Part shown: piece after piece, positions 16,885 to 24,822 of the stretch
Layout of the letters: each line of letters opens with the position of its first letter
Position numbering within the stretch: position 1 is the first letter of the stretch
Assembly: GCF_027924565.1 (NCBI RefSeq)
Contig: NZ_AP027041.1
Coordinates: 3,162,001-3,226,000, forward strand
DNA length: 64,000 nt
Source of the DNA: Lysobacter auxotrophicus
Lineage (GTDB): Bacteria > Pseudomonadota > Gammaproteobacteria > Xanthomonadales > Xanthomonadaceae
Direction: 5' to 3'
Made by a program: the position numbers and the translations under genes
Notes under the pieces: model-generated
Databases searched by the model: none
What the model saw: the letters and a program-made list of their open reading frames with translations, nothing else
Told to the model about the DNA's origin: nothing

Positions 16885-16913
16885 TTGCAAATGAGAATCT
16901 ATCTCATTAACAT
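16885..16913 (+). promoter_or_regulatory. Fur-box promoter of the iron cluster
   Basis: A sigma-70 promoter TTGCAA (16885-16890), 17-nt spacer, TAACAT (16908-16913) encloses a perfect 19-bp palindrome AATGAGAATCTATCTCATT (16890-16908), close to the Fur consensus. Fur-Fe(II) bound here would block RNA polymerase, so the downstream genes should be induced by iron starvation. Confidence 0.8.
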
Positions 16914-16960: not shown

Positions 16961-19264
16961 ATGTCCAACAGGAAGTTCGCCGTCTCGCCGCTCGCCGGCG
17001 CCCTCGCGCTCGCCGTCGTCGCCCCCGCCCTGGCCGAACCGGCGGGTGAGCCCGCCAACGCGCGCGATCTGGACAAGATCGAGGTGCACGGCGAGTACGT
17101 CGAGAAGCCCTCGTCGATCAAGTACACGCAGCCGCTGCTGGACACGCCGCAGACGATCACCGTCGTCACCAAGGACGTGATGGACCAGCAGAACCTGATC
17201 GGCCTGCGCGACGTGCTGAGCACGCTGCCGGGCATTACCTTCGGCGCGGGCGAAGGCGGCGGCGGTTACGGCGACAGCATCACGCTGCGCGGCTTCAACG
17301 CGAACAGCGACATCACCACCGACGGCGTGCGCGACAGCGCGCAGTACACGCGCACCGACAACTTCAACCTGGAATCGGTCGAACTGGTCAACGGCGCGAA
17401 CTCGGTGTATTCCGGCGCGGGCTCGGTCGGCGGCAACATCAACCTGGTCAGCAAGGTCGCGCGCAGCGGCGATTCCACGGTGGTGACGGCTGGCGCCGGC
17501 ACCGACAGCTTCGGGCGCATCACGCTCGACAGCAACACCGACCTGGACAACGGGTCGGCGTTCCGCGTCAACGCGATGGTCCACCAGAACGACGTCCCCG
17601 GCCGCGACTACGAGAACTTCGAGCGTTGGGGCATCGCGCCGTCGGTCGCGTTCGGCCTGGATGGCGACACGCGCTTCACCGCGAGCTATTTCCACCAGAG
17701 CGACGACAACCTCCCGCAGTACGGCGTGCCCTACTTCGCGGCGTTCGGCGGCGGCCTGCCGGGCGTGGACACCGAGAACTACTACGGCTACCACAACATC
17801 GACCGCCAGGAGATCGACGTCGACATGGTCACCGGCGTGTTCGAGCACGATTTCAGCCCTAACACCACGCTGCGCAGCCTCGCGCGTTTCCAGCAGGTGC
17901 AGCAGCTGAGCGTCGTCGATGCACCGCAGGGCACGTGGTGCCTGCCGGCCGGATTCAATCCCGCCACGGGCCTGGCCTGCGCCACGCCCGACACCTACCT
18001 GCCCAGCGGCCCGCGCGGTTTCAGCCGCGACACCAAGAACACGCTCGCCGTGAGCCAGACGGACGTGGTCTCGCGCTTCGCGACCGGGTCGATCAACCAT
18101 TCGTTCGTCGCCGGCGTGTCGTTCTCGCGCGAGGAATTCGAGCTCGACACCGGCAACCTGTTCCGCACGGCGACCGGCGCCACGGTGCCGCTGCCGCCGA
18201 TGTCGATCACCCACCCGAACTCGGTCTACGCCGGTCCGATCAACTACATCCGCGGCAGCATCGCCGAGGGCTCGCTCGACAACCAGGCGATCTACGCCTT
18301 CGACACGCTCGAATTCAACGATCGCTGGATGCTGAACCTCGGCGCGCGCTACGAGCATAACGAAGGCGACACGGTCACCACCACGTTCAACACGACCGCG
18401 GGCAGCCCGCAGCTGGGCCAGCCGACCACGCGCGTCGTCGCGGAAAACTCCGACGACCTGTTCTCGTACCGCGCGGGCCTGATCTTCAAGCCGGCGCCGA
18501 ACGCGAGCCTCTACCTGTCCTACTCCAACAGCAAGACGCCGTCGAAGGCCTCGGTGAACGGCTCGTGCACCGCGACCAGCACCACCGGCACCGCCAACTG
18601 CAACGTCGATCCGGAGACGGCGATCAACCTCGAAGCCGGCGCGAAGTGGGACATCAACAGCAAGCTGGCGCTGACGGCGGCCGTGTTCCGCAACGAGCGC
18701 GAGGAATACAAGGTGGCCGATCCGGGCAATCCGGAGAACCCCAGCGGCGAGCAGCAGCTCGACGGCACCGCGCGCGTGGACGGTGTCGCGCTCGGCGCGG
18801 CCGGCCACATCACCGACGCGTGGTCGGTGTTCGCCAACCTGACGTGGCTGGACAGCGAAGTGATCCAGGGCGTGTCCGACTACTGCAAGGCCAACCCGAG
18901 CACCGCCTGCGGCAACACGGCGGCCGATCCCGATCCGCTCGCCGGCCTGCCGATTTCCGGCACGCCGGAGCGTTCGGGCAGCCTGTGGACCACGTACGAT
19001 CTGAGCCAGTGGACGTTCGGCTACGGCCTGACGTACGTGGGCAATTACGACGTCTACACCGGCAACGGCGCGAACATCGCCGAAGCCAAGGGGTACACGA
19101 CGCACCGCGCGATGGTGGGCTTCGACCTCAACGAACGCCTCGCCTTCCAGCTCAACGTCAACAACCTGTTCGACAAGACGTATTACACGCGCATCCGCAA
19201 CAACGGCTGGGCGACGCCGGGCGACGCTCGCCAGGTGGTGCTGCAGGCCATCTACCGTTTCTGA
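16961..19264 (+). CDS. TonB-dependent catecholate-siderophore receptor (Fiu/PiuA-like)
   Basis: 767 residues. A signal peptide ([20 protein letters not shown]..., cleaved near PALA-EP) is followed by a TonB-box-like DKIEVHG. The plug domain follows ([18 protein letters not shown]... to [12 protein letters not shown], about residues 50-170). Then comes the 22-strand barrel ending in VVLQAIYRF with the outer-membrane C-terminal Phe. It imports ferric siderophores into the periplasm using TonB energy. Adjacent piuC and the Fur box match the Fiu-YbiX / PiuA-PiuC pairing of other bacteria. The siderophore itself cannot be named; the family prefers catecholates. Confidence 0.92.
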
Positions 19265-19337: not shown

Positions 19338-20024
19338 ATGCTGCTCCAGGTCCCGCAAGTCCTCAGTGCCGAACAGGTCGCCCATTGCCGCGACCGCCTT
19401 CGGCAGGCCGGGTGGGCCGACGGACGCATCACCGCCGGGCACCAGTCGGCGATGGCGAAGGACAACGCGCAGCTGCCGGAGAACGACCCGGTGGCGCGCG
19501 AGCTCGGCGGGTTGATCCTCGATGCGCTCGCGCGCAACACGACGTTCTTCTCCGCCGCGCTGCCGCAGCGCATCTACCCGCCGCTGTTCAACCGCTACAG
19601 CGGCGGGCAGTCGTTCGGCTTCCACGTCGACAACGCGATCCGTTACGACCGCAGCCGCGGCGGCGTGGACCCGATCCGCACGGACCTGTCGGCCACGCTG
19701 TTCCTCAGCGCGCCGGAGGAATACGACGGCGGCGAGCTCATCATCGAGGACACCTATGGCGTGCAGCGCGTGAAGCTGCAGGCCGGCGACATGGTGCTCT
19801 ATCCCGGCACGAGCCTGCACAAGGTGACGCCGGTGACGCGCGGCGAGCGCATCGCGTCGTTCTTCTGGATCCAGAGCCTGCTGCGCGAGGATGCGCAGCG
19901 CCGGCTGATGTTCGAGCTGGACGTGTCGATCCGCCACCTGACCCAGGACGTGCCGGAGCATCCCGCCCTCGTGCAGCTCACCGGCGTCTACCACAACCTG
20001 CTGCGTCGCTGGGCCGAACCGTGA
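19338..20024 (+). CDS. piuC: Fe(II)/2-oxoglutarate-dependent PKHD-type hydroxylase (PiuC/YbiX)
   Basis: 228 residues, standard PiuC length. The double-stranded beta-helix iron ligands are visible: H96 and D98 in FGFHVDNA and H161 in [11 protein letters not shown], with a following arginine for 2-oxoglutarate. The tail [28 protein letters not shown] is typical of the family. It is co-inherited with Fiu/PiuA receptors and presumably hydroxylates something linked to siderophore handling; its true substrate is not established to my knowledge. The gap to the receptor gene is 73 nt. Confidence 0.93.
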
Positions 20025-20034
20025 GCCACGCGCC

Positions 20035-20679
20035 GTGAACCGCTCGTCCACCGCACCCGACATCGCCGCGCAGCAGCAGCGTCGCGGGTTCTGGCTGCGC
20101 ACGCTGCATTCGTGGCACTGGATCAGCTCGGCGATCTGCCTGGTCGCGATGCTGCTGTTCTCCGTCACCGGCATCACGCTGAACCATTCGGCGGCGATCG
20201 AAGCCAAGCCGGAAACGCTCACGCGCAAGGTCGAGATGCCGGCGTCCGTGCTGCGCGCGCTCGGCACGCGCGAGGACGGCACCGCGCCCCTGCCCGGCGC
20301 CGTCGGCGACTGGCTGGGCGATGTGCTGCCCGTATCGATCGGCGCGCAGCCAGCGGAATGGTCCGCCGACGAGGTCTACCTGTCGCTGCCGCGCCCCGGC
20401 GGCGATGCGTGGCTCAGCATCGATCGCGCGACCGGCGCGGTGGAATACGAACGCACCACGCGCGGGGTCGTCGCCTACCTCAACGATCTGCACAAAGGCC
20501 GCAACGCCGGCGCCGCGTGGCGCTGGTTCATCGACGTCTTCGCGCTGGCGTGCCTGGTGTTCTGCATCACCGGCCTGTTCCTGCTGCAGATGCACGCGCG
20601 GCAGCGCCGCATGACCTGGCCGTACGTCGCGCTCGGGCTCGCGTTGCCGCTGCTGCTTGCGCTTCTCTTCATCCATTGA
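20035..20679 (+). CDS. PepSY-associated transmembrane protein
   Basis: 214 residues from GTG 20035, 10 nt after piuC. Three hydrophobic helices are visible: about 30-52 ([20 protein letters not shown]), 161-184 ([20 protein letters not shown]) and 194-213. A hydrophilic PepSY-like loop lies between the first two. Histidines in LHSWHW (before helix 1), LNH (after it) and LNDLHKG (before helix 2) resemble candidate heme ligands of PepSY reductases. It is a short form of the PepSY_TM family, suited to pass electrons across the inner membrane. Context with DUF2271, apbE and a flavoreductase supports this; heme binding is inferred. Confidence 0.82.
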
Positions 20680-20699: not shown

Positions 20700-21209
20700 A
20701 TGCGCGTCCAACTGACCATCGCGCTGAGCGGATTGCTCGCATTGCCGGCGTACTCGGCGGAGATCGACGTCAACGTGCAGATCCCGCAGCTCAACGTCGC
20801 CGAATACCACCGCCCGTACGTGGCGATCTGGGTCGAAGGCGCGGACCAGAAGGCGCTGGCGAACCTCGCGGTCTGGTACCAGCAGAAGTCGACATCCGAA
20901 GGCCATGGCACCAAGTGGCTGCCCGACCTTCGCCAGTGGTGGCGCCGCAGCGGCCGCACGCTGAAGGTGCCGGTGGACGGCGTGACCGGTCCGACGCGCC
21001 CGGTTGGCACGCATGCGCTGAAGTTCGACGCGAAGCATCCCGAACTCGGCAAGCTGCCGCCCGGCGACTACACCCTGGTGGTGGAAGCCGCGCGCGAAGT
21101 CGGCGGTCGCGAGCTGGTCAAGGTGCCCTTCAAGTGGGGCGGCGCGGGCAGCGGCAAGGCGCAGGGTGCAAGCGAGCTGGGGCTCGTCAGCGTCGCCAGC
21201 AAGCCGTAA
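20700..21209 (+). CDS. Periplasmic DUF2271 protein with candidate flavinylation motif
   Basis: 169 residues. A clean signal peptide ([20 protein letters not shown], cleavage before EIDV) directs export. The single beta-sandwich-like domain contains [14 protein letters not shown] (35-48), a Trp-rich [11 protein letters not shown] (76-86) and, at 93-99, D-G-V-T-G-P-T. This is close to the D-x-x-S/T-G-A-T sequence in which ApbE links FMN to the last Thr (here T99); only the Ala is Pro. With apbE three genes downstream, the likely role is a covalently flavinylated periplasmic electron carrier. The DUF2271 call is from recognised motifs; flavinylation is inferred. Confidence 0.8.
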
Positions 21210-21225
21210 TCGCACACCTCTCGAT

Positions 21226-21325
21226 CGTCATCCCCGCGCAGGCGGGGCTCCAGCGCCACGACACATCACACTCTTCGGACGCCGTGATTCACGGACAGCT
21301 GGATTCCCCCTTCGCGGGAATGACG
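21226..21325. repeat. Palindromic intergenic repeat, family B, copy 2
   Basis: Arms CGTCATCCCCGCGCAGGCGG (from 21226) and the complement ending CCTTCGCGGGAATGACG (to 21325) are separated by about 50 nt. It interrupts the iron cluster between the DUF2271 and DUF4198 genes, so it lies in their common transcript. Confidence 0.7.
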
Positions 21326-21366
21326 CAAAGGCACGAACACGCAATCAACGAACCCAGGAGCACGCC

Positions 21367-22176
21367 GTGAAGAACTCCCTGAAATTCGCCGCCCTCGCGC
21401 TGGCCCTCACCCTTCCCCTCGCCGCGCAGGCGCACAAGGCGTGGCTCCAGCCGTCGCAGACGGTGCTGGCCGGCAACAATCCGTGGGTGACGGTGGACGC
21501 GGCGGTGTCCAACGACCTGTTCTACTTCAACCACGTGCCGCTGAAGACCGACAACCTCAGCATCATCGCGCCCGACGGCAGCACGGTGCCCGCGCAGAAC
21601 ACCGCGACCGGCAAGTACCGCACCGTGTTCGACGTCGAGCTGAAGCAGGCCGGCACGTACCGCATCGGCGTGGTCAACAACTACGTCACTGGCAGCTGGG
21701 AAGAAAACGGCCAGCCCAAGCGCTGGCGCGGCACCGAAGCGACCTTCGCCACCGAAGTGCCGAAGGACGCGAAGAAGCTGCAGGTCGGCCAGTCGGTGAG
21801 CCGCGTGGAAACCTTCGTCACCAACGGCTCGCCGAACGAGACCGCGCTCAAGCCCAGCGGTGTCGGCCTGGAGCTGGTGCCGGTGACGCATCCCAACGAT
21901 CTGTTCGCCGGCGAAGAAGCGACGTTCCGTTTCCAGATCGACGGCAAGCCGGCGGCGAACCTCGAGGTGGAGATCGTCCGCGGCGGTACGCGTTACCGCA
22001 ACGCGCAGGACGAGCTGAAGGCGAAGACCGACGCGCAGGGCCAGTTCACCGTGAAGTGGCCCGAAGCCGGCATGTACTGGATCGAGGCCAACGCGCAGGA
22101 CGGCAAGACCACGGTGAAGCAGGCCAAGCAGCGTCGCCTCGGCTACGTCGCCACGCTGGAAGTGCTGCCGCAGTAA
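21367..22176 (+). CDS. Periplasmic DUF4198 protein
   Basis: 269 residues. GTG 21367 is preceded by AGGAG at 21356-21360, which decides the start. A signal peptide ([22 protein letters not shown]) is cleaved before HKAWLQPS. The mature N-terminal histidine plus the first beta domain match DUF4198 (NikM-like/GDYXXLXY family); an Ig-like carboxypeptidase-regulatory-type repeat ([27 protein letters not shown]) follows at about 175-240. An exposed N-terminal His can bind metal, so this may present iron or another metal ion. Cysteine-free. Neighbouring DUF2271 and apbE suggest a shared complex. Confidence 0.82.
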
Positions 22177-22192: not shown

Positions 22193-23182
22193 GTGAACAC
22201 GCACGCTTCCGTGTCGCCCGCACGCGCCGTCGATGTCCTCGGCGGCGCGACGATGGGCACGACCTGGTCGGTGAAACTCGTCGCACCGCGCAACGCCGAT
22301 GCGCACGCGTTGCACGCGGGCATCCAGTCGCGACTGGACGCCGTCGTCGCGCAGATGAGCAACTGGGAACCCACGTCGGACCTGAGCCGTTACAACGCGT
22401 CCGATGCGGGCTCGTGGCAGATGCTGCCGGACGACTTCTTCGACGTGCTCTCGTGCGCGCTCGACATCGCCCATGCGAGCGGCGGCGCATTCGATCCGAC
22501 CGTCGGACCGCTGGTGGACGGTTGGGGTTTCGGCCCGTCGGGCCCGACGGCCGAGCGCTTTTCGCCCGACGCGGCGCGTGCGCAGGTGCAATGGCGCCGC
22601 GTGGTGCTCGATCGCGGCGGGCGGCGCGTGCTGCAACCCGGCGGAACGCGGCTGGACCTGTGCGCGATCGCGAAGGGCTTCGGCGTGGACGCGGTCGCCG
22701 CGCACCTTCGTTCGTTGGGCATCGAGGCCGCGCTGGTGGAAGTGGGCGGCGAACTGTTCGGCTTCGGCCGAAAGCCGGACGGCTCGCCGTGGCGGGTGAT
22801 CGTCGAGGGCTGGCAGGGCGACGAGGACGACGCGCACGAGCCGCGCCTGCTGGCGCTCGACAATCTGGCCGTCGCGACGTCGGGTGATCGCTGGCATCGG
22901 CGCGAACATCAAGGCCGCCGCATCAGCCACACGCTCGATCCGCGCAACGGTCACCCCGTGGCGAATGCGCCGGTCGCGGTGACGGTCGCCGCGAACGACG
23001 CCATGCGCGCCGATGCATGGGCGACCGCGCTTACGGTGCTCGGCACGAACGAAGGTATGGAGATCGCGCAGGCCCACGGGCTCGCGGCGCGGTTTGTTGA
23101 CGTGCGTCCCAGCGCCGACGGTCGCGCGGAGGTCGTCGAAGAGCGCATGACGCCGGCCTTCGAGGCGCTGCTGCAGGCATGA
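22193..23182 (+). CDS. apbE: FAD:protein FMN transferase ApbE
   Basis: 329 residues from GTG 22193. Conserved ApbE motifs are present: GATMGTTWSV at the start, CAIAKGFGVDAVA, VEVGGELFGFG, and the metal/FAD site VATSGDRW...ISHTLDPRNGHPV followed by DAMRADAWATAL. The enzyme transfers FMN from FAD to a threonine of a target protein; the DUF2271 protein of this cluster is the obvious candidate. Unusually, no signal peptide or lipobox precedes the catalytic domain, and no upstream in-frame start would add one. The end overlaps the reductase gene by 4 nt (ATGA), so both are translated together. Confidence 0.92.
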   Translation: MNTHASVSPARAVDVLGGATMGTTWSVKLVAPRNADAHALHAGIQSRLDAVVAQMSNWEPTSDLSRYNASDAGSWQMLPDDFFDVLSCALDIAHASGGAFDPTVGPLVDGWGFGPSGPTAERFSPDAARAQVQWRRVVLDRGGRRVLQPGGTRLDLCAIAKGFGVDAVAAHLRSLGIEAALVEVGGELFGFGRKPDGSPWRVIVEGWQGDEDDAHEPRLLALDNLAVATSGDRWHRREHQGRRISHTLDPRNGHPVANAPVAVTVAANDAMRADAWATALTVLGTNEGMEIAQAHGLAARFVDVRPSADGRAEVVEERMTPAFEALLQA

Positions 23183-24822
23183 GCGCGAACGTCACGAACG
23201 CCGCGGGATCGATGCGCGCACGACTCGGAAACGGTGTCGCGCTCGTCGCGTTGTTCGCGGCGATGATCGCGTTCGGAGCCTGGCAGACGGAAGCGTGGTG
23301 GGTGGCGTCGCCGCGCGCGGGCAGCTGGGTGCTCGCGATCGTGGTCGTGCTCGCCTTCGTCGGTTTGTGTGTGTCGACGTGGCGCGACGCGCAGGCGGAT
23401 CGTGCTGGAGCGGACGGGATTGACGTGCCCGACGCCGACGCGATGCTGCTCGCCTGGGCCAGCCAGACCGGCTTCGGCCAGCAGCTCGCCGAACACACTG
23501 CGCAGGCGTTGCGCGACGCGGGCACGGCGGTGCGCGTGCTGCCGCTCCATCGCGTCGACGCGGACGTGCTGCGTTCGCATCGACGGGCGCTGTTCATCGC
23601 CAGCACCACGGGCGAAGGCGATCCGCCGGACCACGCGCTCCGTTTCACGCGACACGTACTCGGGCAACCGATGGCCCTGGCAGGTCTGGAATACGCGGTG
23701 CTCGCATTGGGCGATCGCGCGTACGACCGCTTCTGCGGCTTCGGCCGTCGTCTCGACCAATGGCTGCACCACAACGGCGCGCAGCCGATGTTCGATCGCA
23801 TCGACGTGGACGCCGGCGATGCGGGCGCGCTGCGGCATTGGCAACATCGCCTCGGGCAGCTTGCCGGCAACACCGCGCTGGCCGACTGGAGTGCACCGCG
23901 CTACCGGCCATGGCGATTGCAAGAGCGTCGATGGCTCAATCCGGGCAGCGTGGGCGGTCCGGCGTACCACGTTGCGCTTTCGCCGATGGACACGCGCGAT
24001 CTGGACTGGGAGGCCGGCGACATCGCCGAGATCGGCCCGCGTCACGCGCCATCCGACGTGATGGCGTGGCTGCTCGCCGCCGGTCAGGACGCCGCGGCGG
24101 ACGTCGAACACGGCGGCGAAAGCGTAGCGCTGGCCAGCCTGCTCCAGCGCTCGCGCCTGCCCGAGCCCACCAGCGTTCGCGGTCACTCGCCGCAAACCAT
24201 CGCCAACGAACTGCAACCGCTGCCGCACCGCGAATACTCCATCGCCTCGCTTCCGCAGGACGGCGCGCTGCACCTGCTCGTCCGTCAGATGCGCCACGCC
24301 GACGGCCGGCTCGGCAGCGGCAGCGGCTGGCTCACCGCACATGCGGACGTCGGTGGCCCCGTCGATCTGCGCATCCGGCGCAATGTCGCGTTCCACCCGC
24401 CGCGGGACGACCGGCCGATGATCCTCGTCGGCAACGGCACCGGCCTCGCAGGACTACGCGCACATCTGAAGGCGCGTGCCCTCGCGGGACATCGCCGCAA
24501 CTGGCTGGTATTCGGCGAACGCCAGCGCGAGCACGACTTCCACCACCGGGACGAGATCGAAGGCTGGCTGCGCGACGGCCACCTGCAGCATCTCGACCTC
24601 GCGTTCTCGCGCGACGGCGCGCAGCGCGTGTACGTGCAGGACGTGCTGCGTGCCAACGCCGCACGCCTTCGCGAATGGATCAACGAAGGCGCGGCGATCT
24701 ACGTCTGCGGCAGCCTGGAAGGGATGGCGCCGGCCGTCGACGCGGTACTGCGCGAGACCGTCGGCCTCGACGCGCTGGAAGCGATGGCGGCCGACGGGCG
24801 TTATTGCCGGGACGTTTACTGA
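23179..24822 (+). CDS. Membrane-anchored CysJ-like flavoreductase
   Basis: 547 residues. Two N-terminal helices (about 18-36 and 47-68) anchor it, with the rest predicted cytoplasmic. A flavodoxin-like domain follows (MLLAWASQTGFGQQLAEHTA; STTGEGDPPDHALRF), then an FAD domain with REYSIASLP, an NAD(P) domain with GNGTGLAGLRA, and the C-terminus GRYCRDVY shared with CysJ. It is therefore an NADPH-flavin oxidoreductase related to sulfite reductase alpha, but with no CysI partner in this cluster (true cysJ and cysI are at 30878-34425). It probably feeds electrons to the PepSY protein for iron reduction. The connection is inferred from position. Confidence 0.85.
   Translation: MSANVTNAAGSMRARLGNGVALVALFAAMIAFGAWQTEAWWVASPRAGSWVLAIVVVLAFVGLCVSTWRDAQADRAGADGIDVPDADAMLLAWASQTGFGQQLAEHTAQALRDAGTAVRVLPLHRVDADVLRSHRRALFIASTTGEGDPPDHALRFTRHVLGQPMALAGLEYAVLALGDRAYDRFCGFGRRLDQWLHHNGAQPMFDRIDVDAGDAGALRHWQHRLGQLAGNTALADWSAPRYRPWRLQERRWLNPGSVGGPAYHVALSPMDTRDLDWEAGDIAEIGPRHAPSDVMAWLLAAGQDAAADVEHGGESVALASLLQRSRLPEPTSVRGHSPQTIANELQPLPHREYSIASLPQDGALHLLVRQMRHADGRLGSGSGWLTAHADVGGPVDLRIRRNVAFHPPRDDRPMILVGNGTGLAGLRAHLKARALAGHRRNWLVFGERQREHDFHHRDEIEGWLRDGHLQHLDLAFSRDGAQRVYVQDVLRANAARLREWINEGAAIYVCGSLEGMAPAVDAVLRETVGLDALEAMAADGRYCRDVY

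Follow-up and report, generated by a model that had tools for sequence, protein, structure and literature searches.

A proline variant of the flavinylation motif in a DUF2271 protein as a probable ApbE acceptor in an iron-linked operon of Lysobacter auxotrophicus

The DUF2271 protein encoded at 20700-21209 of a 64,000-nucleotide stretch of the Lysobacter auxotrophicus genome (the window; all features below lie on its + strand) carries a variant flavinylation motif, D-G-V-T-G-P-T, whose last residue, Thr99, is very probably the acceptor that ApbE flavinylates, as judged from conservation and gene content. Thr99 would most likely carry FMN in a Fur-controlled chain for siderophore-iron reduction. 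ApbE has been shown to flavinylate the DUF2271 protein of Amantichitinum ursilacus, where a T-to-A mutation at the predicted site abolished flavinylation (PMC8238504, eLife 2021). The general idea is therefore not new, and the point at issue is the Ala-to-Pro variant. The motif derived from 282 flavinylation-associated sequences is [S/T]GA[S/T] (PMC8238504), and a review defines the acceptor site as D-x-x-[S/T]-G-A-[S/T], with Ala at position 6; an Ala-to-Val substitution there retains ~50% flavinylation (PMC12052999 citing Bertsova 2019). No published mention of Pro at position 6 was found in a search that covered text outside the eLife logo figure.

The DUF2271 protein is 169 residues long (translation of 20700-21206) and aligns with positions 2-135 of the 136 in the PF10029 profile (E = 1e-49), which identifies it as a full-length family member. 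Its first ~20 residues (20700-20759) read as a signal peptide, unfused homologues also have a hydrophobic N terminus, and the protein is proposed to be an FMN-carrying periplasmic domain. Translation places DGVTGPT exactly where the initial annotation had put it, at residues 93-99 (20976-20996; Thr99 codon, 20994-20996). Substitution of Pro for Ala is, as had also been claimed, the sole mismatch to D-x-x-[S/T]-G-A-[S/T]: Asp93, Thr96, Gly97, and Thr99 match and Pro98 does not. When the 64 kb were scanned in all six frames with D-x-x-[ST]-G-[AP]-[ST], two matches were returned, the DUF2271 motif and one in a 39-codon frame, and DGVTGPT itself is present in 62 of 173 homologous DUF2271 domains; together these results rule out a chance occurrence. 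The AlphaFold model is an all-β domain with a mean pLDDT of 73, and the motif falls within a low-confidence loop formed by residues 84-102. A sequence search returned no solved relative of DUF2271, and a fold search returned no solved structure at E < 0.001.

The motif-bearing gene sits in an operon with an iron signature. A Fur-box-like site at 16887-16911, which agrees with the Fur consensus better than any other site in the window (13/19, in two overlapping registers), lies 5' of a gene for a TonB-dependent siderophore receptor (16961-19264; PF00593/PF07715), and similar sites precede the same receptor gene in many relatives. The closest model for the receptor is the catecholate receptor Fiu, which it matches in NCBIfam with E = 2.5e-125, under the model cut-off; TIGR01783 is matched over its cut-off. 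The receptor gene is followed by a gene for an Fe(II)/2-oxoglutarate dioxygenase of the PiuC/YbiX type (19338-20024; PF13640 and PF18331, with NF003975 over cut-off) and one for a PepSY_TM-like membrane protein, a putative heme-type electron carrier (20035-20679; PF16357, E = 2.3e-82). The PepSY protein has three hydrophobic segments, and its His28, His51, and His153 are conserved, as would be expected if it binds heme; by analogy with FoxB, these histidines would act as ligands. Downstream of DUF2271 are genes for a DUF4198 protein with an apparent signal peptide (21367-22176; PF10670, E = 1.4e-64), ApbE (22193-23182), and a membrane-anchored, CysJ-like flavoprotein of the flavodoxin/ferredoxin-reductase type (23179-24822; PF00258 and PF00175), which has two N-terminal hydrophobic segments and is a putative NAD(P)H electron donor. 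The apbE gene is thus two genes downstream of DUF2271 and not the three first reported. The segment between the DUF2271 and DUF4198 genes (21217-21340) contains two opposed CGTCAT...GCGGG-like copies reminiscent of REP elements; the 20-mer tried from it occurs only once in the window, and among reported inverted repeats none of 12 or more lies here. The presence of a PepSY-like protein, DUF2271, DUF4198, and ApbE in one cluster marks a PepSY-like flavinylation system, and the PepSY/DUF2271/DUF4198 grouping is already published (PMC8238504). The gene order of the window (Fiu-like TonB receptor, PiuC-type dioxygenase, PepSY, DUF2271, DUF4198, ApbE, CysJ-like flavoprotein) is the commonest among the loci; the cluster recurs in this order in 47 loci that include the receptor and dioxygenase, and in further loci that lack these two. 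The Caulobacter counterpart, CCNA_03155-03159, is Fur-regulated and needed under chelation with EDTA (PMC8238504, PMC11870441).

Conservation of the motif was analyzed in 173 DUF2271 domains drawn from 155 genome stretches, including the window itself, and 20 named loci, partly from the same genomes. The acceptor column holds Thr in 152 domains and Ser in 21, and every full domain sampled has one or the other. At position 6, 88 of these domains have Pro and 83 have Ala. The sample leans to Xanthomonadaceae, and the Pro share falls to ~23% once close sequences are down-weighted. Other motif positions vary as well, with T/S/A at position 4, G/S/R/A/Q at position 5, and A/P at position 6. In a DUF2271 tree built without the motif columns, a 60-row clade (support 100/97), mainly of Xanthomonadaceae, has G-P-T throughout, and Pro is found in further lineages, with at least eight state changes on the tree of unfused proteins. 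These state changes and the uniform clade indicate that Pro has been repeatedly tolerated and stably held, and the fixation of G-P-T in so large a clade makes it highly likely that flavin can be attached at this variant. The closest named relatives are from Lysobacter. Two departures from this pattern were observed. Fused ApbE-DUF2271 proteins (L191, L193, L196, L199, L200, L240) keep the acceptor Thr and have lost the Asp and the S/T-G, their motif reading x-x-x-A-R-P-T, or A-R-E-T in L240. A second DUF2271 subfamily (L192, L194, L195, L197, L198, L245-L256, L258) has a motif ending in Ser (G-A-S) and mostly adjoins a reductase and ApbE, with no PepSY or DUF4198 nearby.

The genome of the window encodes a single ApbE, and family searches for further acceptors returned no FMN_bind, NqrB/RnfD, or DUF3570 protein, which leaves Thr99 as the only acceptor of known type in the genome. 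Among 149 genomes of the family, ApbE is found in 75 of the 76 DUF2271 carriers and 47 genomes have neither (Fisher p ~1e-18, with relatedness ignored); the locus of the lone carrier without ApbE (G466) ends at a contig end. DUF2271 occurs with exactly one ApbE and no FMN_bind in 57 of the 149 genomes, 39 of which have G-P-T. The motif is present in 135 of the 173 DUF2271 domains versus at most two members of any other operon family, where it is not a conserved trait. The initial annotation had expected Thr99 to be conserved only with a nearby apbE. This expectation failed: Thr/Ser is equally kept in all domains without a local apbE. ApbE is encoded somewhere in 24 of 24 genomes searched, mostly those without a local apbE, which accounts for the retention of Thr/Ser in the absence of an adjacent gene. 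The proposal that DUF2271 is a variant ApbE acceptor stands in that Thr99 occupies the acceptor column, the column is always Thr/Ser, and Pro is fixed in a clade that keeps a dedicated apbE; its principle was already published (PMC8238504).

Several explanations for the distribution of Pro were considered and rejected. An apbE is co-encoded with 87 of the 88 Pro domains, the remaining one being cut by a contig end. This raw count fits a tie between Pro and a local apbE, but no more than five independent pairs fall on branches of the tree with support, and the association does not reach significance. The same five-pair limit, again without significance, applies to a tie between Pro and signal-less ApbE, for which no unfused Pro pair has an ApbE with a convincing signal peptide. 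In these sequences, the association of Pro with ApbE type is inseparable from ancestry. Convergent adaptation of ApbE to Pro was also discarded, the discriminating columns being lineage-specific, and no residue tracks Pro over its independent origins among the linked ApbEs compared. Some operons are reduced. The loci at L262:8528-9643, L263:8551-9681, and L264:7770-8900, all from one genus, keep the receptor, PiuC, and an intact-looking ApbE in genomes that have lost PepSY, DUF2271, DUF4198, and the reductase and have no FMN_bind, so an ApbE of this clade may serve, or may once have served, some other purpose. A remnant operon at L267:4154-5511 has a shortened PepSY that runs into a truncated ApbE frame, with DUF2271 and DUF4198 missing.

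The window's ApbE is an FAD:protein FMN transferase (PF02424, E = 2.6e-76) that keeps the catalytic Ser230, His246, and Asp274, which are shared with solved ApbEs and invariant in the linked ApbEs compared. It lacks the export signal typical of ApbEs that act on exported proteins. Its frame contains no hydrophobic segment between the stop codon upstream and the conserved MGTT, whichever start codon is used, and no twin-arginine signal was seen. Judged by a crude hydropathy score and not a trained predictor, with borderline cases settled by eye, ~115-121 of the 136 unfused ApbEs beside DUF2271 also lack a hydrophobic N-terminal segment, about fifteen DUF2271-linked ApbEs clearly carry a signal peptide or lipobox, and unfused DUF2271 proteins have signal-peptide-like N termini. 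An ApbE without a signal peptide has a precedent in Klebsiella pneumoniae, where its acceptor, fumarate reductase, is cytosolic, and ApbEs acting on exported proteins are themselves exported according to the review (PMC12052999). A signal-less ApbE and a signal-bearing DUF2271 would normally reside in different compartments, and the pairing implies that the flavin is attached ahead of export. One engineered flavoprotein could not be flavinylated after it had folded, as would fit an ApbE that acts on unfolded chains. We put the chance that FMN is attached before Sec export at about even. The pairing of a signal-less ApbE with an exported acceptor is not discussed in those parts of the literature that were covered.

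We propose that DUF2271 is an exported flavoprotein whose Thr99 would be loaded with FMN by the product of the apbE gene two positions downstream, and that the ApbE of this lineage tolerates Pro in place of Ala directly before the acceptor. The flavin would most likely be put on the unfolded precursor in the cytosol, followed by Sec export. Electrons would pass from NAD(P)H to the CysJ-like membrane flavoprotein, then to the PepSY cytochrome and to periplasmic FMN-DUF2271, and in the periplasm they would release iron from a catecholate-type ferri-siderophore imported by the TonB receptor. In its broader form, the proposal is that in many Pseudomonadota a dedicated signal-less ApbE flavinylates DUF2271 while it is still in the cytosol, that the protein then leaves through Sec loaded with FMN, and that this pairing let one branch settle on G-P-T; this could go either way.

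The Pro variant could instead be a poor or dead acceptor, its motif kept for structural reasons and the local ApbE acting on a different target, such as a protein of the cytosol. The signal-less ApbE, the retention of Thr/Ser in domains without a neighboring apbE, the orphan ApbEs of three genomes without DUF2271, and the Ala at position 6 of the reported motif definitions are consistent with such a role. Nevertheless, we consider it improbable: DUF2271 is the sole acceptor-family member found in the genome, the motif is not conserved in any other protein of the operon, in the 149 genomes ApbE and DUF2271 mostly occur together or are both missing, and ApbE is encoded elsewhere where the local gene is absent. 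A dead site would also be expected to have lost its Thr/Ser somewhere in the 60-member clade.

Two further alternatives accept a flavinylated Thr99. Attachment could occur in the periplasm with no pre-export step, ApbE being exported by an unrecognized route. In its favor, the ApbEs with exported substrates in the review are themselves exported (PMC12052999), and about fifteen DUF2271-linked ApbEs have a signal peptide or lipobox. The absence of a hydrophobic segment upstream of MGTT, here and in ~115-121 of 136 unfused neighbors, and of a visible twin-arginine signal makes this route unlikely. Flavinylated DUF2271 might also serve a redox process unrelated to the release of siderophore iron, as some DUF2271 genes are distant from TonB receptors. 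This is quite unlikely for an operon that, here and in many relatives, combines a TonB receptor, a PiuC-type dioxygenase, and a Fur-box-like site, and whose related Caulobacter system is a Fur target (PMC11870441). Thr99 flavinylation within siderophore-iron reduction is the reading we prefer. If T-G-P-T works as an acceptor, strict G-A-[S/T] searches and tags miss half of the sampled DUF2271 domains. If signal-less ApbEs act on exported DUF2271, the flavin would be loaded before Sec export, whereas exported ApbE is usually held to serve exported proteins, and periplasmic FAD would be unneeded for such proteins.

The A. ursilacus DUF2271 belongs to the same Pfam family as the window protein, shares its acceptor column according to the published motif, and has apbE in its cluster (PMC8238504). 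It differs in that the published motif is [S/T]GA[S/T] and its ApbE is described with a signal peptide, whereas the Lysobacter pair has T-G-P-T and an ApbE without one. K. pneumoniae ApbE resembles the window's ApbE in having no export signal, but its fumarate reductase acceptor is cytosolic (PMC12052999), whereas the window's acceptor bears a signal peptide. The ferri-siderophore reductases FoxB and HiuB, like the window's PepSY protein, are PepSY transmembrane heme-type proteins encoded near a TonB receptor; DUF2271 and ApbE, unmentioned in the main text of the hiuABC paper (PMC13001220), are both present in the Lysobacter operon. The PepSY-like flavinylation systems, including Caulobacter CCNA_03155-03159, share with the window PepSY, DUF2271, DUF4198, a flavin reductase, and iron regulation (PMC8238504, PMC11870441). 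Unlike them, the window joins these components in one gene run to genes for a Fiu-like receptor and a dioxygenase of the PiuC type.
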